Below are positions 15,901 to 62,854 of a stretch of DNA of 64,000 nt, in pieces; the stretch's first letter is position 1, and each line of letters starts with the position of its first letter. The notes beneath the pieces are model-generated. The model saw nothing but the letters and a program-made list of their open reading frames with translations. It was not told where the DNA came from and searched no databases. Origin of the DNA: Leucosporidium creatinivorum (taxonomy: Eukaryota > Basidiomycota > Microbotryomycetes > Leucosporidiales > Leucosporidiaceae); the NCBI GenBank assembly GCA_001600635.1, contig BCKL01000001.1, positions 1,799,556 through 1,863,555 on the forward strand. The letters are read 5' to 3'. The position numbers and the translations under genes are program-made.

Positions 15901-18261
15901 ATGTCGGCCTACAGAAACCCCATCAGTACGTCCCAGCGCTTCTTACAATCCTTCTCTCACTGACCCACTACTCTCCTACAGTCCCCGGCTTCTCCCCCGA
16001 CCCCAGTAAGCCTCGCCTTCTGTGCTCGCCGGCCTGGCTCCGGCGCTGACCCTCTCCTCCCTCCAGCCTGCATCCAAGTCAAAGGCATCTACTACCTCCT
16101 CAATTCCTCCTTCCTCTCCTTCCCCGGAATACCACTCTACACCTCCACCGACCTAATCCACTGGACTCACGTCAATAATGTCGTGCAGCGGAGGGAGCAA
16201 GTGCCGAGATTGAGCGAAGCGGGCGTGAGGTTCCCTATTGGAGGAGGATTATGGGCGCCGAGTTTGAGGTATAGGGAGGAAGAGGATATGTGGTATGTTA
16301 CGGTCACACTTGTGTTCCCTCAGACCGAGTATGGGGCGAAGGAGAGGTGGGAAAACGTGAGTCGTTTTGCTCGTCTCTATCGCTCCTCTACCGTTTCAAG
16401 GCGAGCGTCTCGCTGGTATCTTCTCCTCTGCATTTACTCCTCGCCCGCTTCTCGCTACTCCATACCGCTGCATCACCTTCCCGCCCTCGCCGACCTCCTT
16501 GCTATCGCCGAACCTCCTTCCTTCGGCGCCGACAGCTCCTCTTCAAGACTCGCGATCCCCTCGGCGACTGGGGCTTACCCGTCAAGTTCTCTTTCCCCGG
16601 CTACGATACCTCGCTCTCATGGGATGGAGACGGTCAAGCCTGGGTGCAGGGCGCTCACTACTGGCGGGTGAGTAGAGATCTCTCCTCTGTCACTGCCTTC
16701 TCTCTCGACGCCGCTAACCTTCTACGATTCGATACCCTCGTTCCGACATGACAGGTCCGCCCCGAGATCCTCTCCCTGCCCATCGACCTCTGGACAGGCA
16801 AGGCGCTCGGCGAACCAATCAAGATCTGGTCGGGTTTGGGAGGCAAGGCTCCCGAGGCGCCGCATGTGTGGGAAAAGGATGGGTGGTGGTGGATCATCAT
16901 TGCTGAAGGTGAGCGGCTGGTTTGAAGCTGCCGGCAAGATCTCGAGGACAGCGCTGACCCTGTTCTCTAACCCCCCCCCCCCCTCAGGCGGCACCGAATC
17001 TGGCCACTCCTCCACCATGGCTCGCTCTCATTCCCCAACTGCCCCTCCCGGAGTATGGGAGCCTCACCCTTCCAACCCCGTCCTCACCTCCCACTCCTCC
17101 GCCACTCCCTCGCCCGACCCAACTCATTTCACCACCATCGGCCACGCCGACCTCTTCCAATCTCCCGATGGGAAGTGGTGGGCTGTGGCGCTCGCTACGA
17201 GGGATGGAAGAGACGGGAGAGCGCCGATGGGGAGGGAGACGGTGCTGGTTCCGCTTGAGTGGGAGGAGGGAGGTTGGCCGACGTTTGGGAGGGTCGAGGG
17301 GGAGATGGAGGCTGTTCTGCCGGCCTCGAAGGGAGCGGAGGTGACAATGATGGAGGGAGATCTGGGAGTACCGATCTTGGAGGAGGGAGGGAAAGAGGAT
17401 CTGCTGTCCCTCTGCGCAGCTAGCGACGCTGCTGTTGAGGGAACGAGCTCGGCGATCCACCCTTGGCCTCTCCATCTCCTCTTCCTTCGCCTCCCCAATC
17501 TCGTCAACTACACCCTTACCACCTTGACTACCACCAAGCAAGTCGAACTCCTCCTCACTCCCTCGCCAACCACTCTCGCCCATCATCCCCTTGCACCCTT
17601 CACCGACGGCAACTCGGGTCAGCCTCCCTCACGCGCCAACTCCAACCTCCCTTCCTCCTCCACCAGCTCAATCCCCGAGGAATACTGGGGAACTACCACC
17701 TTCCTCTCGAGGCGACAGACCGACTTGGAAGGCGTCATGACCGCCACTTTCGCCGTTCCACTCGACGCCGAAGCACACGGCGTGGAGGCAGGCCTCGCGG
17801 TCTTCCTCGACGAGACGCACCACTTCCTACTGGGGATCTCATCTGCCTCGAACGTCAAGTCGTCGGCGTTGCAGGGCGAGTCGAAGAGCACCATCGTCTT
17901 CCTCCGCTCGACCACCGAGGGGGCTCAAGAGGTTTCGGCGCCTCTTCGTCCATCTTCCTCCACCATTCTGGCTGCCTCCGCCTCACCTTCGGATGAGATT
18001 CAAATCGATTTCCGCATTGAGTGGACGATGGCCACCTACACCTTCTCCTACCGCCCCTCCTCTCCCATCTCCGTCGCCGCCGAGCCAGCCGGCCAGTGGG
18101 TCCAGCTAGGCACTGGCGATTCCAAGGACGTCAGCGGTGGATTCACAGGAGTATTGCTGGGCGTTTGGGCTAGCAGGAAGGTAGGAGGAGGGGCAGAGCG
18201 AGGCTCGGCGGGGCAGGTCAGCGTGAGGGAGTGGAGCTATGAGAGTCGGAGGAGGTGGTAG
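15901..18261 (+). CDS. Glycoside hydrolase family 43 (beta-xylosidase-like)
   Basis: Five-bladed beta-propeller glycosidase acting on xylosides, arabinosides or related beta-linked sugars. The start MSAYRNPI at 15901 joins a 24-base exon (15982-16005, IPGFSPDP) that carries the catalytic base Asp. Then comes TCIQVKGIYYLLNSSF at 16067. Further marks are FPGIPLYTSTDLIHW, GGGLWAPSLRY, the probable general acid in EAPHVWEKDGWW, and the block IGHADLFQSPDGKWWAVALA. The C-terminal third looks like the extra beta-sandwich of the longer GH43 members. No signal peptide is visible at this start, so it may be intracellular or the start may be misplaced. A 13-base C run (16971-16983) forms the polypyrimidine tract of one intron. 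Exact specificity is not predictable. Confidence 0.85.
16971..16983 (+). repeat. Poly-C tract in a GH43 intron
   Basis: Thirteen consecutive C bases end three bases before the AG acceptor. They probably serve as a polypyrimidine tract. Confidence 0.9.
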
Positions 18262-18964
18262 AATGATAGAGGACTCGCTAAATGCATCTAGCTCTCTGTT
18301 GTGCTCGTAGCCCTGCGATGTGTCGGTATTGGGAGAGCGAGAACCCACCAGCGCCGAAGCGAACGCCGAGCCGAGCATGTAGAGGAGCCGCCGAAGTAAA
18401 GTAGACTGCTTACACGCAAGCAGGGACTAACTCCTCCGCGCCCTGCATCTACGCTAGGTCTGCACCTCCTCACCGCTCGCCCGCTCCTTCTTGTCTTCCT
18501 CCCTCTTCGTTCTGCTCTGCTTCGACTCGTCTCTCGCTGCTCTGCGTTACTGGTACAAGCTACAGGTGAGCAGTGCCCTGCTACTTTACAGCTTCTGCCT
18601 CCGCTGACGCCCACTCTTGCTCCCAGACAGCTCTCGACCGCGCCGCGCGCTCGCTTCTACAGCTCGACAGCCTTCGTACGACCTCGAAAAAGCTACTGGA
18701 CGACGAAGCTACCCCTTCCTGCTACCCACATCCCTCTCGTCGAGGACTGAAGTTGCTGCTGCTGAGCGCGATCCGAGATCTGTGAGTTGGGCGGCTGAAG
18801 CGGTACAGAACTGGCTTAAAAGCAGCTGAGCTGACATTCTACCTGTAGAAACTTCACCTCCCCCCCCCTCGCCTCTCCTCGACCTCCTCGAACCTCTACA
18901 CCTCCGCCGAGCCTCGCCCTCTCCTCCTACGCTCGCTCCCGAACCCCTCCGCCGACTCATCGCC
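18262..18964 (+). other. Leader of MATH/BTB-like copy 1, duplicated elsewhere
   Basis: From about 18490 to 18964 this stretch is similar base by base, with gaps, to the reverse complement of about 47592-48105, the leader of copy 2. The similarity includes two probable leader introns. One begins at GTGAGCAGTGCC after CTACAG and ends in TCCCAGACAG. The other begins GTGAGTTGGGCGG and ends CTACCTGTAG. Upstream of 18490 the similarity fades. No separate gene is seen. Confidence 0.7.
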
Positions 18965-20311
18965 ATGCCCGTCACCGAGACATCCGAAGAGACCTACTCA
19001 AAGACCTGGAAGCTCTCGTGGTCCTTCGAAGCGAATCTGAGGAAGGAGTCCAATGTCGACCTCGAATCGGAGCCGATCTTGCTCGACCTTCCGGAACATT
19101 GGACTCTGTACGGCGATCTTGAGGACGAGTCGTCGTCCGATGTTACTTTTGGCATTCGCTGGACGGGTGTGACACTTGGATGCCTCGGCTTGCGTCGGCC
19201 AATACTCTATCGCCTCGTAGCCGTGTACCCCGAGCGCACCAAGGTGGTCGTCGAGAGGAAACTCGAGGCGGACACCACTCGTGCATGGCCGCAACTTGTT
19301 TCGGGCTACAGCACACTCATCAGCGTCGGTGAAGCGTGGTGTCTTCGAGCGAAGTTGCGCTTGACGTACACCGCTCGTGGCGCATCGAAGTCGAGCTCAG
19401 CACGCCGGACATCACCCCCAAGAGTCTTTCCAGCAACGCTGACGCAGCTTCTTTCATTACAAGTCAGTGTCAGGCCCAGAGCCCACTCCTCTGAGTAATG
19501 CTGACCAGCGTTCTCCCCCAGCATCTCACGACCGCCTGCACACCAACAACGTCCGCCTCTACTTCCCCAAGACCGACCTCGAGCTCTGGACGACGTCTAC
19601 CACTCGGTCCGTCTCCCCCTTCTTTCGCGCTCTCTTTGACTCGGGCTTTGCGGAGGCTTCGACGACGACGGGCAAGCGCCGAAGGACCAAGGCGGCGGCC
19701 ACCCCAGAGAGCGTCGACGTTGGACAGGACGCCCTCGCATTCGAGGACTCAGACGACGAAGCCGATGAAGTTTATCTCGAGCAGGAGCGGTCATCCACCG
19801 ACCCATGCGAGGCCGAATATCGACATGGTCGGATCTCAGCGACGCCTTCTCGACATACCGCGCCGTCCTCACCTGGCTCAGCAGCGCCCGCATGGACTTT
19901 GCGGCACTCAATTCATCGTTCGGGACGGGCAACACCGCAGGGGCAGGCCGCAGTCAGAGGAGAGAAGATCTGAACGACTTCTTCGGGATTCAGCCGGACT
20001 TGCCTCTCCTTGTCTCTCCCAAATCCGTCTACCGCCTCGCCGACTTTCTTCAGCTACCCGACCTCAAGTCCCTCGCTCTACAGAACTACAAGTCACAGCT
20101 CGTCAAGGACACCATCGCCTACGAGCTCGTTTCGGACGTCTCCGCCGTCTTCGACGAGCTTCGCCTCGCAGCTCTCGAGGTCGCCGCCAAGGACCTCGCG
20201 TTCGTGAGGACGAGCTCGGCTATGAAGGAGGTGATCAGGTTGATGAAGGACGACGAGGCACTGAAGCAGAGGTTTGCCGATGCAATGGCTGAGCTGTTAG
20301 CGAGGGAGTAG
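18965..20311 (+). pseudogene. MATH/BTB-like gene, copy 1 (two frameshifts)
   Basis: Host gene copy related along its length to the intact gene at 46247-47591. It has the same start MPVTETSEETYSKTW, a MATH/TRAF-like N-terminal half and a BTB/POZ-like half (NNVRLYFPKTDLELWTT). Compared with copy 2, single-base losses shift the frame near 19366 (before HRSWRIEVELSTPDI) and near 19840 (between RISAT and FSTYRAVLTW). Exon 1 is 498 bases against 499 in copy 2. Exon 2 is 790, and restoring one base to each gives a multiple of three. The intron (19463-19521) is in the same place as in copy 2. Either this is a young pseudogene or two assembly errors. BTB proteins commonly act as Cullin-3 adaptors; that role is inference. 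Confidence 0.7.
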
Positions 20312-28264: not shown

Positions 28265-28560
28265 CAAATGATCTGTTTTGTTCTTCTGTGCTGTAGGAAA
28301 CTAGCCTGCCCGCGAGAGAGAGGTCCGAGAGCATCTCCGCCGAGCAAGCCGAGAAAAGGGGGCTCGGCGGCTCCAAAGTCTCGCCCAATGCTCCGAAAGT
28401 CGTACGAAAGCTCCGTTTGAATATTTCTGTGTCTTTTGCGCCTCGTCCTGAACATCTGCTCCGCTGCCCCACACGCGCCTCCGCCGGCGGTTTCGACTCT
28501 CTCCCTCTCTCCCTCTCTCCCTTCTTCGCTCTTTGCGCATCACCCTACAGCAGCAGCAAT

Positions 28561-30225
28561 ATGGCCGCGGTCAAAGTCGAACGTCCTACTTACCCCATTG
28601 TCCCCTTCTCGGACGATACGCCTACACACCCGCTGCTCGTGGTCGACTTCGAGGAAGTGAAAGCGGGCAACGAGGAAGCGATTGAGACGCTGTACAAGGC
28701 CTGCTCTAACCTGGGGTTCTTCTGTATGTCTCTTTAGAGTCTTGCCGTGCTTGCCGAGTTGCTCACGACCTTTCTACAGACCTCAAGAACCACGGTGTCG
28801 AGCCGGAGCCTATCTTCGCTATTGGAGAAGACACTTTCGATCTACCCGAGGAGGAGCTGATGAAATTCGAGCAAGGAGATGGAGGGATGAGTGCTGGGTT
28901 TAAGAAGGCAGGCTCTACGAACGTCGACAAGGAGGGCAACACCGACACAGGTGCGCCGATCCGGGCTCTTTCAGGCGGCGCTGAGCCTCGCTGACACCTT
29001 TTTACATATCTAGCCTACTTTATCAACGTCGCTAAGGTGAAGAGACTCGTTCCATAGCTCTCGGCGTCCCATCTGACCCTTCTCGCTCGCCGAAGGACGA
29101 TGCTCTCCACTTCCCGACAGTCCGCCAGCGAACCTACCCTCAGCCTTGCATGGACAATATGGAGACCTATACCCATTTCACTCGCACAGCCGACGAGGTG
29201 CGTACAGCCTGTCCTTCTCTGGGGCTACCGCCTCAGATCCCTCATCACCGAGCTTTCGCTGACTTTCGCCATGCAGGTCCTCCAAACGCTCATGGATGCT
29301 CTCGAGGCTCCTCTAGGACTTCCATCTGGCACCTTCCGCAAGCTGCATCCCGATGACCAGCTCAGTGGAAGCGAGACGAGGGTGATCCGCAAGCCGGCCG
29401 AGGGCGAGAAGGGTTTCGTGGTGGAGGGGAAGAATGGTGGAGTACAGGGAGCTTCGATCGGCGCTCACACCGACTTCGGCAGCTGTGAGTAGGGTCGAGC
29501 TGATGGTCTCGAGCACGGGGAGCTGATCTCCTTCTCAGTCTCGATGCTCCATGGTCGCGGAACTGGTGGCCTCCAAGTCCTTCCTCCTGGCACAACCGAG
29601 TGGCAGTACATCAAGCCTTTGAAGGGTCATGCCGTCTGCAATGTTGGAGATACGCTTGGTGAGCCGCTCCGTCTCTTTTCGACTGCTCGGCGCCAAGTGC
29701 TGATCCTTACTCTCGCGCCTGCAGCCGTGTACTCGGGAGGCATCTTGTACGTTCTCCGAGAAGTTGACGCTAATACAGAGCCTCGCTGACGCCACTCGTA
29801 TCCCCTCTGTAGCAATTCCAACATCCACCGCGTCGTTCCTCCCCCTCCCCCTCAAGACGTCCACACTCGCTGGTCGCTCGTCTACTTCATTCGCCCTGCC
29901 TTCGACGCCGCGCTCTTCCCTCTGAGGTAATCACCTCTTGCTTTCTACCTCCGCGTCTCCGCCGCTAACCCTGCACCCTCTACAGCGACCTCTCGCCCAA
30001 GATCGCCGAGGCCGCCTCGAAACACCCTGTGATGAGCAAGATGGAGGAGGGAGTGACCGCTGGACAGTGGTTCAAGAGACGAATTGCGGGGCAGCGTGCG
30101 GCGAATAGAAAGGGTCCCGAGAGCTGGGGACAGTCGAGGGGAACGGAGCGTGAGCTTTGACTTCCGCCGAGAGGTGCGCATGAGCTGATTATGTGACCTT
30201 CGCAGATAACCCTGATGCTGCATAA
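28561..30225 (+). CDS. 2-oxoglutarate/Fe(II) oxygenase, IPNS-like (tandem copy 1)
   Basis: Non-haem iron oxygenase of the isopenicillin N synthase / flavanone-hydroxylase-like superfamily. It oxidises an unknown small molecule using 2-oxoglutarate and oxygen. The start MAAVKVERPTYPIV is at 28561 and the stop after NPDAA ends at 30225. The N-terminal half has LLVVDFEEVKAG and YLKNHGVEPEPIFA, typical of the DIOX_N region. The iron triad is His and Asp in GAHTDFGS and His in NSNIHRVVP. The 2-oxoglutarate-binding Arg is probably in the RWSLVYFIRP region. About eight introns occur, several at the same codons as in the next gene. Copy 2 follows 743 bases downstream on the same strand. Confidence 0.88.
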
Positions 30226-30968
30226 GCAGTCGTGTGGCTACGTAGCAGCTTGTTAATGATTATTCCGTAGTCATCACGCCGGCCCGTGACCAGTCTCGAG
30301 CTTTTTCATCCGAGCGGGTTCGAAGCTCGGCGAGGCATCGTCCGAAGAGGGCTTGGTGAGCTCTTCGCCGTCTGCGAGCCTGCTCTTCTGGAATATTGCC
30401 TGATCCTCCACCAACGCCTGCTGAAGAGATTAGGCCGACCAGCGCCCGAGAGCCCCCTCGGCGCGGCCACAAGCTCGGCGGGAGCGTTTGCGTCGGTGCT
30501 CGTACATACTCCCACACAGGCTGTCCGTTTCTGACCTCGACCAAAGCGCGAATCGCCCGTGTACGTCGATAGGCCGGAAGAGTTCTGTTGGCCTTCGGCG
30601 ATGAGTTCTGCAGCTGAATGACATTGCTCCGCGCCGCCGAGCCTTCTTACTTCCTTGCTACATCCTTTCGAGGCTTTCTTACTTCAATTCGGGCAAGATA
30701 AGCCTTCAATTCAAGCGCCTAACAACGTTTCAACCCTTTCCCTTGCCGGAGGATAGGCTCGCCTTTCGCAGCAAAGGGGGGTCACCTGCTGGCCGAGGCG
30801 GCCAACGTTGCTTCAGTTCGTTAGCTGCCGCACGCTGTGCCGAGCTGCACCATAAAACAAGACTACACCCCGCAGCAAGGCTCAAAAGCGCGGAGGCTCC
30901 ATTCTCTCCCTCTTTCTTCCCTCCACACCTCTCGACACCACTTCAAAGTTCTGCACCTCAAACGAATC
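30226..30968. other. Intergenic between tandem oxygenases
   Basis: This 743-base stretch holds the promoter of oxygenase copy 2. Several GCTCGGCG-like words occur near 30326 and 30475. No gene or RNA is recognised. Confidence 0.5.
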
Positions 30969-32641
30969 ATGCCAGGACTCAAGTCAAACCGCCCTTCATA
31001 CCCCATCGTGCCCTTCTCGGACGACACTCCGACTCACCCTCTGCTCGTCGTCGACTTTGAGGAGGTCAAGGCTGGCAAGCAAGAGGCGATCGATACTCTG
31101 TACAGCGCGTGCTCGAACCTGGGATTCTTCTGTACGCTTGCAACCCTGTCCGAGCCTTTACGCCGCTGACTGAGCTCTCTTCGCAGACCTCAAGAACCAT
31201 GGCGTCGAGCCCGAGCCTGTCTTTGCCATTGGAGAGGACACCTTTGATCTGCCTGAGGAGGAGTTGATGAAGTTTGAGCAGGGCGACTCGGGAATGAGCG
31301 CTGGATTTAAGAAGGCGGGCTTGAACAATGTCGACGCCGCAGGAAACCTCGATACTGGTGAGTAGGAAGGCTATCAGGCTACAACGAGTGAGCGAGTACT
31401 AACTTGCTTCCCTTCCACTCCCGCAGCCTACTTCATCAACATTGCCAAGGTGAGTTTCGAGCCTCGAAACGACCTCTCGGCGATCGCTGACTGGACTTCC
31501 GCCTCTCTTCCCTCGCTACAGGACGACGCCTTCCACTACCCTACAGTCCGGCAGCGCACCTACCCCGACACCTGTATGGAGAACATGGGCACTCTCACCA
31601 ACTTCGCGCGCACCGCGGACGAGGTGAGTCTTTCGCCGGTCGAACGAACGCCGAGGGCCCGACTAAACTCTCCCCCTCCGTACGCAGGTCCTCCAAACGT
31701 TGATGGACTCGCTCGAGGCACCATTGGGACTCCCTGCTGGAACTTTCCGCAAGCTGCACCCCGAGGATCAGCTCAGCGGGAGTGAGACGAGGGTTATTCG
31801 CAAGCCGGCCGAGGGCGAGGCTGGCCACATTGGCGAGGGCAACAAGGGTGGCATCAAGGGAGCCTCGATCGGCGCTCACACCGATTTCGGTAGCTGTGAG
31901 TCGAGTTTAGTTGCTGCTCTGAAGTCTCGGGAGCTGACCTACTGATCTTGCCCAGTCTCGATGCTCCACGGTCGCGGCACTGGAGGACTCCAAGTCCTTC
32001 CTCCTGGCACAACCGAATGGCAGTACATCAAGCCGCTGAAGGGCCACGCCGTATGCAACGTCGGAGACACTCTCGGTGAGTCCTTCTCCTTCCTGCGACT
32101 GCTCGGCGCCGAACGCTGACCTTGCTCTCCGCCGACAGCCGTCTACTCGGGAGGAATCTTGTACATTCTTTGAGTAGTCAACTCTGATGCAGAGCCTCGC
32201 TGACGCCACTCTCAATCCACCTTCAGCAACTCCAACATTCACCGTGTCGTTCCTCCTCCCGCGCCTCAAGACGTCCACACTCGCTGGTCGCTCGTCTACT
32301 TCATCCGTCCCGCTTTCGACGCCGCGTTGACCCCTCTGAGGTAGCTACTTATTTCTTTCTCGCTGAGTCCTACTCCGCTCACCCTTTCCCCATGCAGCGA
32401 CCTCTCGCCCAAGATCGCCGAGGCTGCCTCCAAGCACCCTACTATCAGCAAGATGGACCAAGGCATCACTGCTGGACAGTGGTACAAGCGCCGCATCGCT
32501 GGACAGCGCGTCGCCAACAGGAAAGGACCCGAGAGTTGGGCTCAGTCCCGTGGAACTGAGCGTAAGCTTCGACTTCGACGACCAGCGCCGAGCGCTTGCT
32601 GATCCTCTCTTGCGCGCGCAGACAACCCCACTGCTGTTTGA
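30969..32641 (+). CDS. 2-oxoglutarate/Fe(II) oxygenase, IPNS-like (tandem copy 2)
   Basis: Close tandem paralogue of the gene at 28561-30225. The start MPGLKSNRPSYPIV is at 30969 and the stop after NPTAV ends at 32641. Long blocks are identical to copy 1, for example YPIVPFSDDTPTHPLLVVDF. Changes cluster at the N-terminus, in the region after EAGHIGEGNKGG and at the C-terminus. Iron ligands GAHTDFGS and NSNIHRVVP are kept, so both copies should be active. Intron positions match copy 1 but intron sequences differ, which means the duplication is not very recent. Shared or divided substrate roles cannot be told. Confidence 0.88.
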
Positions 32642-32871
32642 GAGGCTTGGTCGTTTCGTATAACTCAGCTCGGAATGATACGAAGAAGTGATCTGTGATT
32701 CTGGTAGCTCGCCGAAAAACTGAGCTCGAGCTGTCGGCAGAGCTTCGCCGCTCCGCTGCTCCCTCAGTCGACATCAACAGCGAACAGCCAAAGAACCAGC
32801 TTTAACGAAAGAAGATCACACTACGCAAACCAAGTCTAATAACCTTATAGCAAATCGCTCGCACCTCCGCT

Positions 32872-36182: not shown

Positions 36183-41135
<4,953 letters not shown>

Positions 41136-41343: not shown

Positions 41344-43002
41344 CTACTCCAACTTGATACACGCTTCCTCGCTCGGCGGATCCGCCGCTTCCCTCATTCT
41401 CCGCCTCGCCTCCACCACACCCTTCTTCAGCAACAGCGTCGACATCTTGGGCACTCCTCTCTCCGCCAGCAGATTGATGTATCTGTTCAGATTGTCCTCC
41501 GAAAGTGAGAGGAAGAAGACGAGCCGGTCAATCGAGTCGAGCCCGTGAGTGAGGAGGAGGGGCGCGGTCGAAACGAGGGAGGAGGAGGTCGAGATGGAGG
41601 CGAGGAAGAGTTTGAGAGTGGGTGTGAAGGGGTGTGGTAAGGCTGGCTGGGAGGTGGGTGAGGTCGAGCGGAGGTGTTGAGCGCTGGGGGAGGGTACGCC
41701 GAGAAACGAGGATGAGCGAGAAGATGGGGTGAGAAGCATGGGGTGTGGCTCGGCCGCTCGTCGAGGTTGATGGTGTTGATGAGAAGAGATGCCGGTGGAG
41801 AAGGAGGGTGTAGAGTGCTGTCGGGGAGTAGAGGCTACCGCCGAGCGAGACGCCTGCTGAGCCCACGGGCCCAACCAGGCTGCTGACGGAGGGTGTAGCG
41901 GATGATTATGCCTCAGCTCCGACCGGACTATGCACCAGCGCCCATGCTGCAGTTGCGCCTTGAGAAATGCTCCACAGAGCCGGCGACCTTCCTCCTTCGT
42001 GCTCGAGTGGGCCATCTTGCAGCTCATCGTGTAGTAGCGCCCACTTGCACGCTCCTGGTTGTTCATGTGGCTGCCTAGTAGCGCGAGGTCCCATCCTTGC
42101 TGCTTGGCGGCGGCACTGGCGATGATGCGAAGCTCGGTGTGGGAGGCGGCCGAGATACCATTGTCGGGGGTGGGGAGCTCGACGGGACCAGACTGCAGGT
42201 TGGGGTTGATCAGCGCATGCTTAGAAAGTGTTTATGATTAGCTCACTTGAGCGAGCTGGTCGATATCGTCCATGATCCTACTGATCCTTGGATGCACCAG
42301 CACCGAAATCCTCGGCTTCTTGCGCTGGCCTGACTGCTGGAGCAAGTCCTCCTCGGCTGCCTCCGTGTTGGCGACAAAATCCTCGTCGTGCTTGGTGTCC
42401 ATCACCAGCGCGTCCTCCGTAGCCGGCAGCGCAAGCGATTCCTCGACGACCGAGCGTGGCCTCGTTCGGCGGCCCTCCGTCGCTTCCTCCCCATCTGACG
42501 AGTCCAGCTGATCGCATTGGTCGTCCTCTTCCGAGTCCTCTCGATCCTGCTGCCCACACGGTCTTCCTTGAATGCCGAACTCCGCCTCCTCCGCCTGGAG
42601 AGCTTCAAGCCTCCGAAGTCCCCGAGCTCTAGCCAGCCGCACGGACTTGAGGTCCATGTCGAGTCTGCAGCTATGCTGCGGGTCGGATTGACGGACTATC
42701 CATTCGTCCTGTCCTGCTTTGAGAGTGCAGCGGATCGTGCACGAGCAACAGAGGTCGCGCGGGGTGGATTTCTCGACGCCCAGCATGCAGCGGAAGGTGA
42801 TGGCGGAGGGCGTAGAGGCGACGGTGGTGAGCCAGATGGAGTTGCTGACTGTCACATGACATGCAATGTCAGCGAAGAGGCCACACAGCTTCCAAGAGAG
42901 CGAGCACGGACGGCAAATGCGGGAGATTTCGAGCTGAGCCGCAAGCTTCGACTCGTAGGCCGTCCCGAGCACAGGCATAAGTTCTGGAGCGAGTGTCGAC
43001 AT
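41344..43002 (-). CDS. FAR1/WRKY-GCM1-like zinc-module protein A
   Basis: First of three same-strand paralogues (see 43338-45559 and 48523-50078). The exons 43002-42912, 42848-42247 and 42192-41344 join in frame to 513 residues. Module 1 starts with LGTAYESKLAAQL and ends in DPQHSCRLD. An acidic linker and VHPRISRIMDDIDQLAQ lead, across an intron, to module 2. That module starts LPTPDNGISAASHTELR and has RRLCGAFLKAQLQHG and SELRHNHPLHP. A Ser/Pro/His-rich spacer precedes the shared C-terminal domain (FTPTLKLFLAS, then GLDSIDRLVFFLSLSEDN). The Cys/His arrangement ending in HNHP resembles FAR1-type DNA-binding domains. DNA binding is inferred. It may derive from an old DNA-transposon regulator, but no transposase core or terminal repeats are visible. 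Confidence 0.75.
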
Positions 43003-43337
43003 GTTACAGATGTGCAGTCTAGCTTGGAGCGAGGTGAGATGAGAAGCGAGCGAAACGCACGAGCGCAAGGGCCATCTTGCGGAGGGTGAGATAACAAAGG
43101 CGGGGGCGGGTCGATTCTCAACAGCTCGTGTACAAGTACAGAACTTGTAGCTCAGCGTTGAGCATGAACTGAGCTTGGCACCTCTTCCCTGCTCTTCGAA
43201 GGGCCCGCTTGCTGTGTTCAAGGGGCCGAGCGAACGCCGAGCAGGCCACTTCCTCGACTACAAGGTCGGTTAGCCACTGGGATAGTATATCAACAAGAAC
43301 AAGCAAGTACTAAACACGACTATCCTTCTGCCCCAGC
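43003..43337. other. Intergenic between zinc-module genes A and B
   Basis: This 335-base stretch is the upstream region of gene A and the 3' side of gene B. The frame of gene A stays open upstream of 43002 to about 43221, but the alignment to genes B and C supports the ATG at 43002. Nothing else is recognised. Confidence 0.5.
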
Positions 43338-45559
43338 CTACGCCTCTCCCGACCTCTCCTCGAGGGCGCCCTCACCCACCTCCAACGCCATCTTCCTCGC
43401 CCCTCCCACCGCCTTCTTCAGTAAAGCCCTCTGCAACCTCGGCAACCCCTTCTTCTCTCCCAGCTCCTCATCCACAAACTTCTCCAGCATTTCGGGGCTC
43501 AGACTCAGCAGCATCATGAGCCGCTCGGCGCTGTCGATGCCTCCTCCTTGAGGTGTTGGTGCGAGGAGGAGGGGAGCGTGAGGGAGGAGAGAGGGAGATG
43601 CGTTGATCGAGCGGAGGAAGGTGAGGAGGGTGGGGTAGAAGGGATGGGATTGGGCGACGAAGGGCGCTGGAGGAGGAGAGGCGGCGACGGAGGCGGTGGG
43701 GAGGGTATTGGGGTGGGTGGCGTAGGGTGAGGGAGGTTGGTGAGAGGTATGGAATGGTGAAGGAGAATGAGAGTGGGTGTGTTGGCGAGCGGATGTCGAA
43801 GGAGCGGGCACGGGCGACCGAGAGCGAGCCCGCTTCTCCTTCTTCGGCGGAGGGCGAGAGAAGGGTCCGTCGACGTTGGTGGAAGTCGAGGTACGATGTC
43901 GCTTGCCGACCTTTACGCTCGTTGATTGGCTATCGAACTGGATCCCTGGGACCAAGCGATGCGTATGGGACAGGCTCTCCCTCACCACCTTCCACCTTCC
44001 ATCCTCGCCCCGACCGAGCACCACGTGCATCTTGCACTTCCCTCCCTCCTTGTCGTTTATCCTCGAGTGCCCGTTTGAGCACATAAGGCCAAAGTGATCG
44101 TTTCGGATTTCGGAGGAGGAGCACATACGACTGTCGAGGAAGAGATTGAAGCCTTGCTGAGCGGCGGCGGCGAGGAGGTGCGTGCGGAGAGCCGTGTGCG
44201 TGTCGAAGGTGAGGTTGCTGGATGAGGTAGGGAAGGAGAGAGGTGCCCTCTGCAGAGGAGTGAGGTCAGCGGGCCGTCGGCCAGCGAGGAGCGAGGCAAG
44301 CGAGGACCGGCCTACGGATGCGAGCTTGTCCACTTCGGTCCTGATAGCGTTGATATGCGGGTGTTCGAGAGTACCGCGTCTTCGAATGGCCGGTTTCCAC
44401 TGCTTCTGCCGAGCGACCGACGTCTCGGGAGAGGAGCGTTTGACCTCAGCGTCGTCCTCCTCCGAGAACGACTCGTCATCATCGCTCCCGTCCTCACTTT
44501 CCGTCTCGAACTTCCGCTCCTTGACCTTCGGACTCTCCCTCTTCCACCCCTCCTTCGACGCCCGCACCTTCCCGCCCGACGTACTCCTCGTCTCATGATT
44601 ATGCCCCAACTCGGACTCGGTGACCCTCCACCTCCCCTGCTTTTCCTCAATCTTGACCCTGAACGGGCAGAGACCTTTCGGATCGTGGCGAAAGCGGTCG
44701 TGGGCGAGGGAGCAGAGGAGAAGAGCCGAGGTGGAGGTGGTCGTGCCGCCGTAGCGGTAGATGGAGAAGCCTCGTTGGGTGCAGCAGGCGTAGAGGATGA
44801 CGAGGAGGTCGTGAGCGGAGGGGAAATTGTCGGTAGGAGAGGGAAAGGAGAGAGGGCCGATCTGGACAGAGGCGAAAGGGTCAGCGAAGGCCGAAAGTGC
44901 TGCCGCTGTTCGATGGAGGCAGGGTACACGATGAGAGAACCACAAAAGCTCACTGATGACATCTGCCGACTCTCCGTCTGCACTCCTCGCGCGGAAGGGT
45001 ACAGGCTTTCCCATCGACCTCCCGTAACTCGGCGACCGTCCTCGTCCTCGCTCGAACTGCCGTCGTCGCTGTCCGAGTCGTCCTCCTCACTATCGCTATC
45101 CTCCTCCTCGCTGCTCTGCTGCACTGCCTTGGCCTTCCCCGGGCCCTTACTTGCTCTCATCTCCTCCTTCAACTTCGCTAGCCGTCCGGCAATCTTCTGC
45201 CTAGCCTTGATCCGGTTTGCGTCGAGTCGCTCCTTGCCGCAATCATGTCCTTCCGTACTTCTTACGACTTCGAACGTCTCCGTCGTCCTTGCCTGCAGCT
45301 TACAGTCGATGCCGCAAGAGCAGATGCCGTTCCCCGCGAGCGAGCAGTTCATATAGACATGATTGCTAGGGACTGATTGGGTGATAGCGAGGTTGATGCT
45401 TGCCTTCACTGTCGTTGGCGTGAGAAAGCGTCAGCTGCAGAACGCGGCGGTAAGGCCCTCCGGAAAGAACGCACAGCAGCGCTCGTAGATGTCTCGCTTG
45501 AAGGCCTCGAGCGAGCTGTAGCTCGTCCCTACTGGTGGTAGTATCCTTGGAGCGGCCAT
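43338..45559 (-). CDS. FAR1/WRKY-GCM1-like zinc-module protein B (three modules)
   Basis: Largest paralogue. The exons 45559-45475, 45408-44954, 44861-44316 and 44249-43338 join in frame to 665 residues. Module 1 starts VGTSYSSLEAFKRDIYERC and ends EGHDCGKERLD. Module 2 has GLCPFRVKIEEKQGRWRV and SELGHNHETR. Module 3 has GGKCKMHVVLGRGEDGRW and SLSHTHRLVPG. Modules are separated by very acidic Ser/Asp/Glu linkers and by EHPHINAIRTEVDKLAS, the same helix as in A and C. The C-terminal domain (FYPTLLTFLRSINASPSLL, then LSPEMLEKFVDEEL) matches A and C. Every module junction coincides with an intron, so modules look exon-shuffled. Nuclear, probably DNA-binding, by inference. Confidence 0.75.
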
Positions 45560-46246
45560 GCGCCGATAGGCGACCGACGAGGCGAGCGAAGAGACGAGCA
45601 AGATGAGGACGGAGATCAACCTGTGCGAGCTGGCTCGAGCGAAGGGGAAGCAGTTGAGTGGATACAAAGGGGTGCACTAAAAGCTTTTCATATCTTCGTA
45701 CATTGCTGCTAGCGCTCTACAAGCTCTCCGCGGAGCTCCCTGAGGCTCTGCTCAGACACCAGCTCGGCGCCGAGCAGGTCGTTTGCTTCTGGGCCGCCTG
45801 AACACGCAGTCTGGGAGCGCTCGAAGCCCTCAAGAGCTGCAGTAGCAGCTCCAAAAGCATGCCATCTCTCACTTAACCTCGTAGGCGTCTTGCTCGTCTC
45901 CAGCAGCAGCTCGGCGCCTCCTTCGAGGCCGTCTCGCCGCTCGATTCTCACTAGCGCTGAGCGAGAGCGCAATGAAGACGATCAGAGCAGATGTGCAGCG
46001 CATCAGGGTGATTGCAGGTATCTGTACCGAGTTCTCAGGGCCTCGCAGATCCTCGTCCAACTCTGGTCGACCATCGTCGAGCTCGCGCCTGTTCGCCAAA
46101 GCCTCTTGAACGGTGGAAAGCAAAGCTAGCTTGCAGCGAGCAGAGACACGTAGCCCTTAGCAACTCTCGCTCCCTGCAATAGTATAGTAACAGTCAGCCT
46201 CGACGCACTCCACCGCAACGAGGCAAGAGAACTCACCTCCCCTCGG
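45560..46246. other. Intergenic with a possible tiny secreted-peptide frame
   Basis: This 687-base stretch is upstream of gene B and downstream of MATH/BTB copy 2. On the minus strand an ATG at 46003 opens a 44-codon frame to 45869. It starts with a signal-like stretch (MRCTSALIVFIALSLSAS) and continues very basic. It could be a chance frame. Nothing else is recognised. Confidence 0.3.
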
Positions 46247-47591
46247 TCACGGTCTCGCGAAAAGCTCAGCCATCACGTTGGCGAACCTCTTCCTCAGCTC
46301 ATCGTCGTTCTTCATCGCCCTTGTCACCTCCTGCATGGCCGCGCCACCCTTGATACTATCGAAGTCCTGGGCGGCGAGGTCGATGGCGGCGCTCCGAAGC
46401 TCATCGTACTCGGCCGAGACGTCCGAAGTGAGCTCGTATGCGACAGTGTCATCGTCGAGTCGAAGCTTGTAGGCGTCGAGGGCGAGGGCTTGGAGGACGG
46501 GCAGTTCGAGGAAACGGGCGAGGCGGTAGACGGATTTCGGCGAGACGGGGAGTGGCAGGTCGGGCTGCAACGAGTGATAGTCGCGCAGACCTTGCCGCCT
46601 TCGAGCCTGGTCTGCACCGGCGGCGTTGCCCGGCTTGTAATCGGAAGCTAAGGGAGCGAAGGTGATGTGCGAGGTCGTGAGCCAAGTGAGAAGGGCGCGG
46701 TAGGTCGAGCAAGCCGTTGCCGAGATGCGGATATCTCGATAGCTGGCGTCGCTAGAGTCGATCGATGCTTGCTTTGACCCGAGGTAGAGATCGTCGGCTT
46801 CGTCATCCGAGTCCTCGAATGCGGGATCGTCTGCGCCGACATTGACGCTCTCGAGGGATGCTGACGACTCGGTCCTTGGTCGCTTCTGAGGCTTCGAGTC
46901 CTCGACAAACCTCGAAGCAAACAGCGTGCGAAAGACTGGCGAGATGGAAAGCAAGTCGGAGGTAGTCCACAGCTCGAGGTCCGTCTTGGGGAAGTAGAGG
47001 CGCACGTTGTTTGAGACGAGGCGCTCTTGCGAAGCTTGAGAACGGCAGGTCATCAGCGAGGCCAAAGGCGGGCGAGAAGTGCGAGAGCTCACGGGCGATG
47101 TAAAGGGCAGCCTTTGCGACCTGTTCTCGCTTCACGACGTCGATGTCGAGAGTGCTGATCTCGACTTCGAGCCGCCACGAGTGTCGAGTGTCGGCAAAGA
47201 TCTCCAGTTCGATGAGTCGGAAGTAGGCGACGCTCAGAAGCCCAGTACTCCCCGACACATATCCAGGCCATACACACTGCGCTTCGTCTTGCGTATTCTC
47301 GTCAACGAGGGTGCTGCCTCCTGGGCCTTCGGCGTAAAGACGGCATACGCTTGTCATGCCACTAGAGCTCAAGCAGCCTATCGCGACACCTTTCCAGCGA
47401 AGTCCAAGGCCGAACTCTGTGGGGGAAGGGTTGGCTGGGGCGCAGTAGAGCACCCACATCCCCGGGAGGTCCAGCAAGACGGGGTCAGACCTCAGCTCGG
47501 GTAGGGCTTCCTCCCCCATGTCGGCTTCGAACGTCCACGAGAGCTTCCAAGTCTTGGAGTAGGTCTCTTCGGAAGTCTCGGTGACGGGCAT
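46247..47591 (-). CDS. MATH/BTB-like protein, copy 2 (intact)
   Basis: Two exons, 47591-47093 and 47034-46247, give 1,287 bases and 428 residues. The start MPVTETSEETYSKTWKL equals that of copy 1 at 18965. The N-terminal 150 residues form a MATH/TRAF-like beta domain (SKTWKLSWTFEAD, then RHSWRLEVEISTLDI). The next 110 resemble BTB/POZ (NNVRLYFPKTDLELWTTS, SISPVFRTLFASRFVE), with an acidic insert (DDPAFEDSDDEADDLY). The rest, from SPKSVYRLARFLELP, looks like the helical tail that follows many BTB domains. The intron uses GTGAGCTCTC and ends TCTCAAG. MATH-BTB proteins often recruit substrates to Cullin-3 ligases; that is inference. It sits between zinc-module genes B and C. Confidence 0.78.
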
Positions 47592-48522
47592 GAGCGCTGA
47601 GTCGGTGAGGGAGATGAGAGCGAGCGTAGGAGGATGGGGCGAAGCTCGGCGGAGGTCGAGAGGGTCGACGAGGTCGAGGAGAGGTGAGGAGGGGTCGGGG
47701 GCAGCTTCTGTAGGTAAGTGAACGTCAGCTAAGCCGCGTCTATGCCACTCCTATACCTCTTGAGCCGGCCAACTCACAGATCTCGAGTCGCGTCGACGCT
47801 CTCAGACTGCTCTCAGCAGCAGCTGCTTCAATCTTCGACGAGAAGGATGTCGGTAGCAGGAAGGGATAGCTTAGTCGTCCAAAAGCTTCCACGGAGTCGT
47901 ACGAGGGCTGTCGAGTGCAGCTGGCGGGCTGTAGCGCAGCGAGCTAGCGACGCGATCCGTTCGAGAGCTGTTTGGAAGCAAGAGCAGGCGTCAGCGGTGT
48001 CGAGCGCTGTAGTAAGGTAGAGCGGTACTCACCTGTAGCTTGCAAGAGTGTCGCAGAGCAGCGAGAGACGAGTCGAAGTAGAGCAGACGAAGAGGGAGGA
48101 AGACAAGGAGTGAAAGGTGCTGCAAGGAGGAGGTCGAGCGAGCGGTATGAGCTGTAGTCGTCTCCAAGCTCGGTCAGTACACTTCAAGCTAGGCTTCGAG
48201 TCTGTGCTTCAGCTCGAGCCTCCCCTCGGCGACTCTCTGCAGCTGCTCGGCGCCCGCTTGAGACCCCGCTGGCCGCTCGCTGCTCGCTGAGGACATACAA
48301 CAGGCTCTGCAGAATACCTCGAACAGGTGAAAGGTATCTGGAGAGCCGCGCTGGGTTGTCGCTGAGCCGCAGAGGCTTTCCTCACCGCTCTCAGTCAGCG
48401 CCGAGCTTTCGCCAGCCAGTCGAGACGGGTCTTGGTAAATCTTGCAGGGCCTTGAAAGCGTCAGGTACATCCCATCAGATCCTCAAAGCTCTGATCCCGC
48501 TTCCCAGCCTCCAAGTCACCCC
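47592..48522 (-). other. Leader of MATH/BTB-like copy 2 and 3' side of gene C
   Basis: From 47592 to about 48105 the reverse strand matches the leader of copy 1 (about 18490-18964) including two probable leader introns (GTGAGTTGGCCGG to CTACAG, and GTGAGTACCGC to CCAAACAG). The remaining 48106-48522 shows no recognised gene. Confidence 0.65.
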
Positions 48523-50078
48523 TCACAACTCCATCTTGATCGCTCCCTCCCCCTCACCCTCCCTCACCATCGCCCTCCTCTTCGCATCCTTGACCACGTT
48601 CCTCAGCAACGCCTGCTGAATCTTCGGCAACCCAATTCTCTCGCCTAGGTCTCCAACATATTGATTCACCGACTCGTCTTCGAGCGAGAGGAGGAACACG
48701 AGTTTCTCGGTCGAGTCGAGGCCGGCTTGGAGGAGGGAGGGGGCGTAGGCGAGGAGGGTGGGGGAGGTGGTGAGGGAGTGGAGGAAGAGGGTGAGAGTGG
48801 GGACGAAGGCGTGGTTGGTGGGGGGAGGAGGAGGGATCGAGATGGAAGGGGTGAGGCGCTTCGGAGGGGGAGGAGCGAGGAAAGGCTCGTCGTAGAGGGT
48901 GGGAGAGGATGAGCGGGAGGACGAGGAGGAATAGCGGCGCTTGTTCGAGCTGGAGGATGGCGAGTCTGAAGTGGAGGGCACCCATTCATCGTCCTGCGCA
49001 TGTCCCTTCTTCGTCGGCGCCGAGATCTTGAGGGAGGCCTTCAGCTCCTTCATCTTCTCCTTCGAAGGCCACGCCGTCATCCTCCCTCCGAGAGGGTGGT
49101 TATGCTTCTCAATAATCTTTCCCACCTCCCAATCCCCATCCTCCTTCTTCTGGATCTTCAAATACGCTCCGCAGACCTCGCTACGCTTGCCGAGCTTGGG
49201 CGTTCCGCACGCGCAGCGTAGAGTGAAGGCCGTGCCCTGGTTCATCTCGGCATGGGTGAGGTGAATGGGAAGAACGAGGAGGGCGTATCCTCTTTGTAGA
49301 GCAGCGGCGGTAGCTTGAACGCGGAGGGCGATGTAGGACGAGGAGGAAAGGCCGTTCGAGGGAGTAGGGAGGTCGACGTCGCCGGTCTGCAGGGCTCGGT
49401 GAGGTCAGTGTGTGAGAAGCAAAGATACCAGGAATTACTGGCGTACCTCCGCGAGCCGGTTGATCCGAGGGATGAGACTGCTGACCTGGGGATGAACGAG
49501 AGCGCGAGCTGCGCCGAGCTTCTTCTCGGCGCTCCCTCCTGCCTCGGCGCTCCCTCCTCCTGCCTCCCCCGAGTCGAAAGCTTCGTCGTCTACCTCTTCA
49601 TCGCTACTGTCATCATCATCCGACCTATCGCCGTCGCTCCCCGATCCACCGGATCTCCTCCCGCTCGCCCTCCCTTGCTCCATCGCCGCTTTCACCCTCT
49701 CGCACTGCAGCGCCATTCGCTTGCGAGCATAGTCCTGACTCGTCGCCTCGCTCTCCTTGCCACACGAGTGTCTTGCTTCCCTCTGGGTGACGACGAAGCT
49801 CTCTCGGCGATTCGAGCACGCGATGCGGAAACTGCAGCCGTTCGGTTTGCGATGTCGACAGCGGAAGTCGATGTAGTTCGAGCTGGAGGATGTGATGGAA
49901 GCGTAGACCGAGCTGGATACTGTGATAGAAGGGTACATGTGAGCTTTAGGCCGCCGAGAAAGAAGCGAGAGAGACGAGTCATACCACACCACTCGTAGAG
50001 CGCCACTTTGAAGCTGTTGAGCGAGTCCCAGGAGCTTCCTAGGGCAGGGAGAGCAGGTGCAGAGGACGAAGAAGCCAT
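48523..50078 (-). CDS. FAR1/WRKY-GCM1-like zinc-module protein C
   Basis: Third paralogue. The exons 50078-49985, 49919-49447 and 49386-48523 join in frame to 476 residues. Module 1 starts LGSSWDSLNSFKVALYEWC, continues SSSSNYIDFRCRHRKPNG and ends EARHSCGKESE. An acidic linker and VHPQVSSLIPRINRLAE follow. Module 2 starts LPTPSNGLSSSSYIALRV and has TLRCACGTPKLGKRSEVCG and IIEKHNHPLGG. The C-terminal domain (FVPTLTLFLHSLTTSPTLL, GLDSTEKLVFLLSLEDES) closes the protein near IKMEL. The same intron phases and positions as in gene A show common descent. Predicted nuclear and DNA-binding by analogy only. Confidence 0.75.
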
Positions 50079-60678: not shown

Positions 60679-62105
60679 GCCGTAGGCTGTATTTGTGCTG
60701 GTTGAGAAGCTCGAGCTCGGCCGAGAAGAGACGGGACGTGCTTGAGAGGCGCGAAGAGGGAGGAGCAAGAGCCTCGCTGAGCCCGAGCGTCGGTGGTCGT
60801 GCAATCCGGTGCGTGCGCTTTAGGGAATGCTCGAGCTCGTACAACTGTGCTGCAGTACTGTCTGAGCTGCCTGCTCACGCCCCTCGCCGAATCCGACGTC
60901 TGGCTCGGCGCTAGCCCCTGGCTTCGGCGCCGGCTCTTTCGCCTCTCGCCCTCGCTTACGTACCCGGCTCTGTAGTTAGTGATGCGCCCTAGATGATAAA
61001 TTGCCAGCAGATACCATCTCGCGCCCTCCCTGGCAGGCGGGGAGGACGGAGAGAGAGGTGCCCGCCGCGAGAAGCTCTCTTCTGCCTTGAGGCGCAGCCA
61101 GAAGCTCGCTTCGTCGGGCGAATGGGAGTCTTCCGAGCTGATCCCGAAGGGTAGACATCTCTTCCCATGCATCTACATAGGGACTTTGAGCACCTCGCGT
61201 AGTCGAGAAGGCGATAGCTTTGATGAAAGAAGCCAGCGCCGAAGGGCGAGCGAGTGCGAAGTGCGTGACTTCTGCAGTAGTCGAGGTTCGGAATCAATTC
61301 CAAGGATAGACCTGAAGCCCTGACAACCTCAAAGTGTCGTTGAGTCGTGCGTGGAAGCGTCGACATCAGGCTCGGCGATGGGGACTCGGAGCGGTGCGAA
61401 ATCCGGGGAGATGGGCCGGTCTGGGAGTTGTGTGGGTGCAGATGTATGTGAGAGTAGGAAATTAGCACAGTCTTGACCCTCATACAAACAGGATGGGGTG
61501 TCAAGGCGATAAACCCAGGAGATGGAACGGAGAGCGCTGGAACCATCGCCGAGCAGGCTGAGCTGGGCGACGGCTGAGCAGGGCATTCGCTCATCTGAGG
61601 GATGTCTGAGAGGTAATGGCGGGAAAAATGATAGATGCTTCGACACAGCATTCACCCCTTCAACGCTGCTCAGAAAGGTATCCCAACGACTCGAACAGGT
61701 GATTGTCGAGCCCTTCCCCTACGCCGACTCTGGCCTTTCATAGCAGATCTTGTAGCTTGTCGGGTGGAGTACAGTACAGCACTTTGGAAGCTTGCTGCAG
61801 CGCGCCTGAGAGTGAGCTGAAGGGAGAGAGAAGGAGAAACTGTCGTTGGCAAACCGAGCGATATCTTAAGCCGAGCTGAGGGACTGGGGCTACTCGACTA
61901 CAGGTGGCTGTGATGTCAACGCTGTAGCCAGACCTTGACTGTACCATATCGGCCTTTTCCTTGTAGTGATGTGCAGCTGCAAAGACTGCAAAAAGCAGCG
62001 CCGAGCCCTCCTCCGACTCTGCTCGGCGAACGCTGGTCCCCCAGGGAAGCTGCAGACGACCTGTGAGAATATGCTTCAGGTAAAATCGACNGGACCAGCA
62101 AAAAA
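60679..62105. other. Intergenic, no gene recognised
   Basis: About 1.4 kb between the Ipk1 start and the tRNA. It holds the Ipk1 promoter. A 220-codon minus-strand frame (60989-61651) has no domain, odd composition and no intron signals, so I do not call it. One undetermined base lies at 62091. Confidence 0.45.
62100..62105 (-). terminator. Pol III T-run terminator of tRNA-Leu
   Basis: Six T bases on the transcribed strand directly after the tRNA 3' end. Confidence 0.85.
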
Positions 62106-62111
62106 TGAAGC

Positions 62112-62145
<34 letters not shown>

Positions 62146-62207
62146 CGGACATAGAATGAATTCTAACGACCTTAAGCTGGCGCCTTAGACCGCTCGGCCA
62201 AAGCTCC
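62106..62207 (-). tRNA. tRNA-Leu(AAG), intron-containing
   Basis: Reading the minus strand from 62207: acceptor GGAGCTT, D-arm GCCGAGCGGTCTAAGGC, anticodon stem CCAGC/GCTGG, loop starting TTAAGG (anticodon AAG), an intron of about 22 bases after position 37, a class II variable arm TCCGAAAGGGC, T-arm GTGGGTTCAAATCCCAC, acceptor AGGCTTC and discriminator A. The acceptor stem pairs with two G-U pairs. It reads CTT and, with inosine, CTC. Internal A and B box promoters are in the D and T arms. A T6 terminator follows at 62105-62100. Confidence 0.93.
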
Positions 62208-62854
62208 TGTTTTTTTTTTGTGTGGACCAGCGTACGGCAAATATAATCCACAGACCCACAACACTACTGATTTTTCCGTGCTCCCCTCCGCTCCGCAACC
62301 TCGACCGACTTGGGCGCTGACTCGGCGTTCCCATGGCTTCCTTCCGCTGCTTCCTAAGTTGGCCTTGCTTAGCCTCGGGCAGGGGTTCTCCTGCTTATTG
62401 GAGCGCTCCTGCTGATGTTTTGACCCAGCAAGACTTGCTCTTGCGTGTGGAAAAGGAGATTTCGACGGAAGTGAGCGCCGAGCCTTGGCCGAGACCAAGA
62501 AGCTGCCATCGCAGTAGCCGATCTGTCGGCTTCCAGGTTCGCTAATACGCACTGCAACCACTTCGGCTCCAGTCGCGCCATGCATCCCGCCGCACTGTCG
62601 CAATGCTGAGGAGGGAGAGTGATCGGCGAAGAGTCGGGTTCGGCGACGATTGAAACCGCCCTTCGCTAGACAAGACGGCAGATATGTGGCTCAGGGAGAG
62701 GGAAAGGCTCGTTTAGTCTAGCTTGCGGTACAACACTGTGCAGTAGGGATGTGAGCTGAGTCGAAACTACACCTCTTGCCGCCGCTCGCCCTCTTCGACT
62801 CTCTTCCTCCTGCCACCCACTGCTCGTTCGCCTCGTCTTCTCAGCTCGCCGTCG
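62208..62854. other. Intergenic, nothing recognised
   Basis: Between the tRNA and the last gene. A run of ten T (62210-62219) lies directly upstream of the tRNA. The stretch from about 62750 is the leader of the plus-strand gene. No other feature is visible. Confidence 0.5.

Follow-up and report, generated by a model that had tools for sequence, protein, structure and literature searches.

A window of 64,000 nucleotides from contig BCKL01000001.1 of the basidiomycete Leucosporidium creatinivorum (positions 1,799,556 to 1,863,555; the contig is C1 below, and positions without a contig name are those of the window) contains three minus-strand genes, A, B and C, which encode two or three zinc modules followed by a shared C-terminal domain. 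Their exon and intron limits are predicted splice models, picked from the sequence and from homology. In these models all seven introns are of the GT-AG type and 54-92 nt long, with the first intron in phase 1 in each gene and all later introns in phase 0. A preliminary description of the locus had reported that intron phases agree between A and C, which the models bear out, but B matches too and the agreement is not restricted to that pair. As B intron 3 (44315-44250) is 66 nt long and free of stops, it could be retained. The features of the three genes are listed below, with scores in bits against the held-out profiles described thereafter.

41344..43002, minus: gene A, 513 aa, exons 43002-42912, 42848-42247 and 42192-41344, introns 42911-42849 and 42246-42193; splice model, two modules and C-terminal domain by held-out profile
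42664..42975, minus: gene A zinc module 1, H.C type, split by intron 42911-42849; 16.4 bits, against 9.1 for the best of 900 shuffles
41899..42168, minus: gene A zinc module 2, HNH type; 32.9 bits, FAR1 E 0.005 in the spliced protein
41395..41628, minus: gene A C-terminal helical domain; 67.5 bits
43338..45559, minus: gene B, 665 aa, exons 45559-45475, 45408-44954, 44861-44316 and 44249-43338, introns 45474-45409, 44953-44862 and 44315-44250; splice model, three modules by held-out profile
45239..45541, minus: gene B zinc module 1, H.C type, split by intron 45474-45409; 12.2 bits, the lowest of the seven modules
44592..44846, minus: gene B zinc module 2, HNH type, structure predicted; 56.3 bits, AFT2 fold match
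43956..44216, minus: gene B zinc module 3, HTH type; 37.7 bits
43386..43640, minus: gene B C-terminal helical domain; 58.7 bits
48523..50078, minus: gene C, 476 aa, exons 50078-49985, 49919-49447 and 49386-48523, introns 49984-49920 and 49446-49387; splice model, held-out profile
49762..50051, minus: gene C zinc module 1, H.C type, split by intron 49984-49920; 20.7 bits
49093..49362, minus: gene C zinc module 2, HNH type; 50.4 bits, Pfam FAR1 24.6 bits in the genome search
48568..48807, minus: gene C C-terminal helical domain, structure predicted; 92.7 bits

A hidden Markov model built from 23 modules, all of them outside the window, was run on A, B, C and 900 shuffles. It detected exactly two modules each in A and C and three in B, which confirms the additional module first proposed for B. 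Modules 2 and 3 scored 32.9-56.3 bits, whilst the first modules were weaker (A 16.4, B 12.2 and C 20.7 bits), all above the top shuffle at 9.1 bits. A C-terminal profile of 15 sequences, again all from outside the window, detected the shared domain at 67.5 (A), 58.7 (B) and 92.7 bits (C), against 3.9 bits for the best shuffle. As both profiles detected every module and C-terminal domain above the shuffles, the observation of A, B and C as modular zinc proteins with a common plan is confirmed. The helix ahead of an intron (VHP.I..I...ID.LA) is visible in A (VHPRISRIMDDIDQLA), B (EHPHINAIRTEVDKLA) and C (VHPQVSSLIPRINRLA), and the signature proposed for the first module needs correction in A, whose first module ends in HSCRL rather than H.CGK and keeps LGTSY..SLE only in part. 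In an alignment of 13 hand-chosen second and third modules, C57, C71, H94 and H96 are invariant in all 13, as is a Trp that is nevertheless not universal across modules; in each of A, B and C the first module carries the H.C variant, giving C-C-H-C ligands.

Our assignment of the modules to the FAR1 / WRKY-GCM1 type, as the preliminary description had suggested, rests on profile matches and on the predicted fold of one module. The Pfam FAR1 profile matched nine of the 13 modules, and in the spliced proteins it covered the second half alone in A and C and positions 29-88 of 90 in B; none of the three reached the FAR1 (PF03101) cut-off of 28.1 bits (A 18.0, B 25.3, C 21.7), although a paralogue at C37:187235, on the contig described below, scored 29.1 bits together with its neighbours in frame. 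A FAR1 search of the genome matched two places only, one of them above the cut-off, whilst Pfam AFT gave weak matches to two of the 13 modules (best E 0.0035). The predicted structure of B module 2 consists of a helix and a four-stranded sheet bearing a C-C-H-H zinc site; its closest solved fold, and the sole PDB sequence match for the module, is yeast AFT2 in complex with DNA (PDB 4lmg), with FLYWCH and WRKY folds ranked lower. Together these matches support placing the modules within the WRKY-GCM1 superfamily, which is mainly DNA-binding, and from this membership and the AFT2 match we infer that they may bind DNA. Were the modules instead protein- or RNA-binding scaffolds, with the C-terminal domain as the active part, their divergence beyond the zinc core (the aligned modules are 18-57% identical to the first of the set) and the H.C variants of the first modules would fit, but the best solved relative is a DNA complex and the superfamily binds mainly DNA, and we consider such a role very unlikely.

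Several known systems share part of this plan. The yeast iron regulators Aft1 and Aft2 have the same helix and four strands with C-C-H-H ligands, whereas the family here exhibits tandem modules, many members and a common C-terminal helical domain. Aft proteins are characterised by a CDC iron-sulphur motif and an iron response. The FAR1 domain (PF03101) of plant FAR1/FHY3 proteins and MULE transposases is shared by profile in nine of 13 modules; in contrast, the modules here occur in tandem with an added C-terminal domain, A, B and C fall below the cut-off, and no MULE transposase core was found in the spliced A, B and C proteins at E up to 1. Given the sub-cut-off scores and AFT2 as the closest solved fold, it would be wrong to call A, B and C 'FAR1 proteins' as in plants, where the name implies a MULE transposase core. 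FLYWCH1 and group I WRKY proteins likewise carry multiple superfamily modules per protein (the title of PDB 2rpr refers to a fifth FLYWCH domain), but of a different sequence subfamily.

The C-terminal segment appears to be a small helical domain without a match among the catalogued families that we searched, in line with the earlier view of it as unrecognised. Pfam searches returned no credible match (DUF2250 at E 0.056 and FeoB_C at E 0.093, in one member each, were the sole hits), the PDB sequence search gave no believable match and comparison of the predicted structure no clear fold match. A SAM domain was considered, but none of 18 C-terminal domains matched Pfam SAM; a SAM_1 search of the genome found three places (on contigs C2, C18 and C7), none at the family genes.

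A, B and C had been taken for a three-member family, a count that our searches of this one genome (27.7 Mb) overturned, with the same C-terminal domain found in 20 further genes on contig C37. Only the top candidates were scored in genome searches, so the counts are lower bounds. The last exon of gene C matched 27 places at E up to 1, of which 20 were on C37 or the C1 end and seven elsewhere in the genome (E 0.004 to 0.44), whilst a C-terminal domain from C37, searched to the same limit of E, matched 23 places confined to C37 and the C1 end. When 18 C-terminal domains were combined in a profile and scanned over the loci, the window and the stretches around weak matches, 24 places emerged, again restricted to these two regions, with nothing at the weak-match places on C13, C29, C17, C43, C35 and C14; the member at C37:63603, left out of this profile, was recovered at E 7.7e-10. 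Because C1 and C37 overlap, one place is present on both contigs and the 24 places represent 23 distinct members, three in the window and 20 on C37; were the overlap a genuine duplication, the total would be 24. Two module queries from one subfamily (III, below) matched 15 and 16 places, and only one of these, on C36 (E 0.25), lay off C37 and C1. Outside the cluster, a gene at C2:627283-627687 (L066; E 1.4e-9) has a single N-terminal module, with no C-terminal domain seen by the profile, and is a candidate outgroup or founder. Another member query matched C3:627914 (E 3.3e-5) over query residues 108-235, mostly linker, and several more matches of member queries elsewhere in the genome all had E > 0.003.

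The ends of C1 and C37 share 4,701 bp at 99.94% identity in opposite orientation, so C37 is probably the continuation of C1, although the last 141 bp of C37 have no counterpart in C1 and inverted repeats flank the overlap, which argues against regarding the join as proven. C37 starts with CCCTAA-type repeats, three copies of which lie within its first 40 bases, and contig C13 ends in degenerate TTAGGG-type repeats; on this basis C37 most likely reaches a telomere, and if C1 and C37 are joined the family spans roughly 240 kb beside a chromosome end. Within C37, 83.4-86.7 kb is an inverted duplicate of 92.1-95.3 kb (93.5% over 2,464 bp), and 157.4-160.6 kb of 176.2-179.5 kb (95.6% over 3,242 bp). 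Inverted repeat arms at 61388-62647 and C37:212831-214089 (98.7% over 1,260 bp) surround the next member past the window, and both contigs end in or beside these arms. Scattered N in the recent duplicates L040 and L041 of C37 (23 and 19 N) and a long stretch of 710 N in locus L044 (within C37:60119-63349) may be assembly gaps. A large, fast-diverging region rich in inverted repeats could also be a mating-type or incompatibility locus, its diversity kept by recognition between individuals; but STE3 pheromone-receptor matches are on C25 and the single Homeobox_KN match is on C24, with none on C1 or C37, and the assembly position makes this candidate extremely improbable.

Modules were counted by profile over the examined loci at E up to 0.05, a profile which includes 31 family modules and thus provides a count rather than independent proof: two or three modules precede the C-terminal domain in 17 of 23 members, and at least one does so in 21. 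Four extra matches, beyond the examined flanks for the members at C37:158.9 and 177.7 kb, at C37:59401 (perhaps part of the 61.6 kb member) and, weakly, at C37:187892 (E 0.095), would raise the two-module members to 21. Two members, C37:23870 and C37:63603, gave no module by profile, although inspection by eye shows a module-like stretch in C37:63603. In a tree of the 31 modules, 10 of 28 inner branches were well supported. The second modules of subfamily III (C37:43-45, 81-95 and 158/178 kb) form one clade (support 95/95), and its first modules another (94/92, below the support mark), joined there by module 1 of C37:214 kb, a member of a different subfamily. A separate clade (100/98) unites module 1 of A, B and C, and module 3 of B groups with the second modules of A and C (96/91). 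Since B module 2 lies at the base of the second-module clade, B probably owes its extra module to an older duplication.

Ratios of nonsynonymous to synonymous change (dN/dS) were calculated for 15 chosen segment pairs in 18 comparisons (one pair was also cut into three parts), the segments being locally aligned open frames with possible intron ends and shared members, hence rough, non-independent averages. They ranged from 0.15 to 0.73 and were below 1 in all 15 chosen pairs; gene C and its nearest paralogue gave 0.37 for the module, 0.42 for the linker and 0.29 for the C-terminal domain. These values show conserved coding with quick divergence, and purifying selection between the chosen paralogues. 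They bear on two further explanations, the first of which is that the copies are transposon leftovers, the modules being the N-terminal DNA-binding parts of MULE transposases minus the catalytic core and the copies remnants or hitch-hikers. Plant FAR1-type proteins have been described, in the text available, as MULE transposase derivatives, and the copies do lie within a duplicated chromosome end; but the one Pfam MULE model tried gave no match in the genome (in a 14-genome control it matched in three), the copies preserve their reading frames, the order of modules and the C-terminal domain, with dN/dS below 1, and the duplications include neighbouring sequence. We consider this origin quite unlikely. 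The second is a chromosome-end or genome-defence family, whose modules would diversify to bind and silence transposons or end repeats in the manner of KRAB zinc-finger clusters, which are diversifying silencers of transposons. Numerous fast-diverging copies in one chromosome-end block, the multi-module layout and the relatively high dN/dS of 0.73 for the module pair L038m1/L039m1, resting on few changes, are in its favour, yet mean dN/dS is below 1 in each pair (as segment averages, not at site level) and the Pfam search of A, B and C returned no silencing-type domain, so that defence seems unlikely.

On balance we favour the view that A, B, C and their paralogues are nuclear sequence-reading regulators, with tandem zinc modules and a shared C-terminal contact module, expanded at a chromosome end. 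This builds directly on the architecture, the family size, the location, purifying selection between chosen paralogues and, by prediction, the fold class of one module. The two or three WRKY-GCM1-type modules (AFT/FAR1-like; a helix, four strands and C-C-H-H or C-C-H-C ligands) would each contact DNA like AFT2, with the acidic and Ser/Pro linkers as spacers and possibly activation segments, whilst the C-terminal helical bundle would serve all members as a protein-protein module through which they dimerise or dock a co-factor. The approximately 23 members may have arisen by tandem and inverted duplication beside one chromosome end, the modules diverging and the C-terminal domain staying common. 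A more specific version, which we advance only tentatively, is a lineage-specific set of about 23 combinatorial regulators, with position-diverging AFT/FAR1-type modules and an orphan helical domain that pairs members or binds a common partner, in effect a switchable TLO-like set with its own DNA-reading domains. The Candida albicans TLO family resembles this only by analogy of how it works, as a lineage-specific expansion of transcription regulators near chromosome ends (strain SC5314 has 14 members, 13 telomeric and one centromeric, according to the accessible text of PMC4335505). It differs in that TLO is a Mediator subunit with a Med2-like domain (PMC4335505, same text), whereas here a cluster at one end carries zinc modules.

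Among the literature matches listed, from a search that most subscription papers lay outside, none described a fungal FAR1/WRKY-GCM1 family or chromosome-end zinc-finger expansion like this one. Large FAR1-type families are described in plants in the sources as accessible. Pfam FAR1 counts in Table 3 of PMC4469406 (consulted as an excerpt) are zero in three Microbotryomycetes (M. lychnidis-dioicae, S. roseus and R. glutinis), one in Mixia, 14 in the rust Melampsora and four in P. graminis. The available portion of a fungal transcription-factor survey (PMC5415576) lists WRKY and GCM-like families without using the term 'FAR1', that of PMC4161868 cites the superfamily review of Babu et al. (2006) with nothing more on the subject, and that of PMC5604158 contains nothing relevant. 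The low fungal FAR1 counts may reflect the Pfam threshold, and as A, B and C all fall under it and the genome search matched two places, Pfam-based FAR1 surveys could miss such a family. The orphan C-terminal domain is a target for structure work, and some 23 natural paralogues offer a system for studying DNA reading by tandem WRKY-GCM1 modules and what drives regulator amplification at chromosome ends.

Between B and C lies a further gene, part of which was duplicated along with gene C.

46247..48090, minus: neighbour gene, of a family with no convincing Pfam match; extent approximate

Positions 47461-49191 match C37 locus L004 at 85% and 47520-48808 match L005 at 77%, and a paralogue of the neighbour gene lies in the window at 18441-20308 (+), matching over 18830-20308. 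The neighbour-gene family therefore has at least four copies or part-copies (46247-48090, 18441-20308, L004 and L005), and because three directly adjoin gene-C-like genes, a two-gene unit of neighbour and gene C type seems to have been duplicated. A BTB/MATH identity suggested by eye for 46247-48090 was rejected, as Pfam gave neither BTB nor MATH there, only DUF3862 (E 0.061). Elsewhere in the window, 28297-32773 is a local tandem duplication with pairs of open reading frames 47-82% identical over 55-131 aa, one frame of which has a weak likeness to DIOX_N, the N-terminal part of non-haem dioxygenases (E 0.043, under the cut-off). Upstream of gene A (at lower coordinates), 37046-38941 (+) contains a PHD finger (E 2.3e-9) and the start of a MOZ/SAS domain (E 1.9e-4, under the cut-off), a possible histone acetyltransferase gene, and 16672-18258 (+) encodes a glycosyl hydrolase family 43 enzyme (E 1.7e-17).

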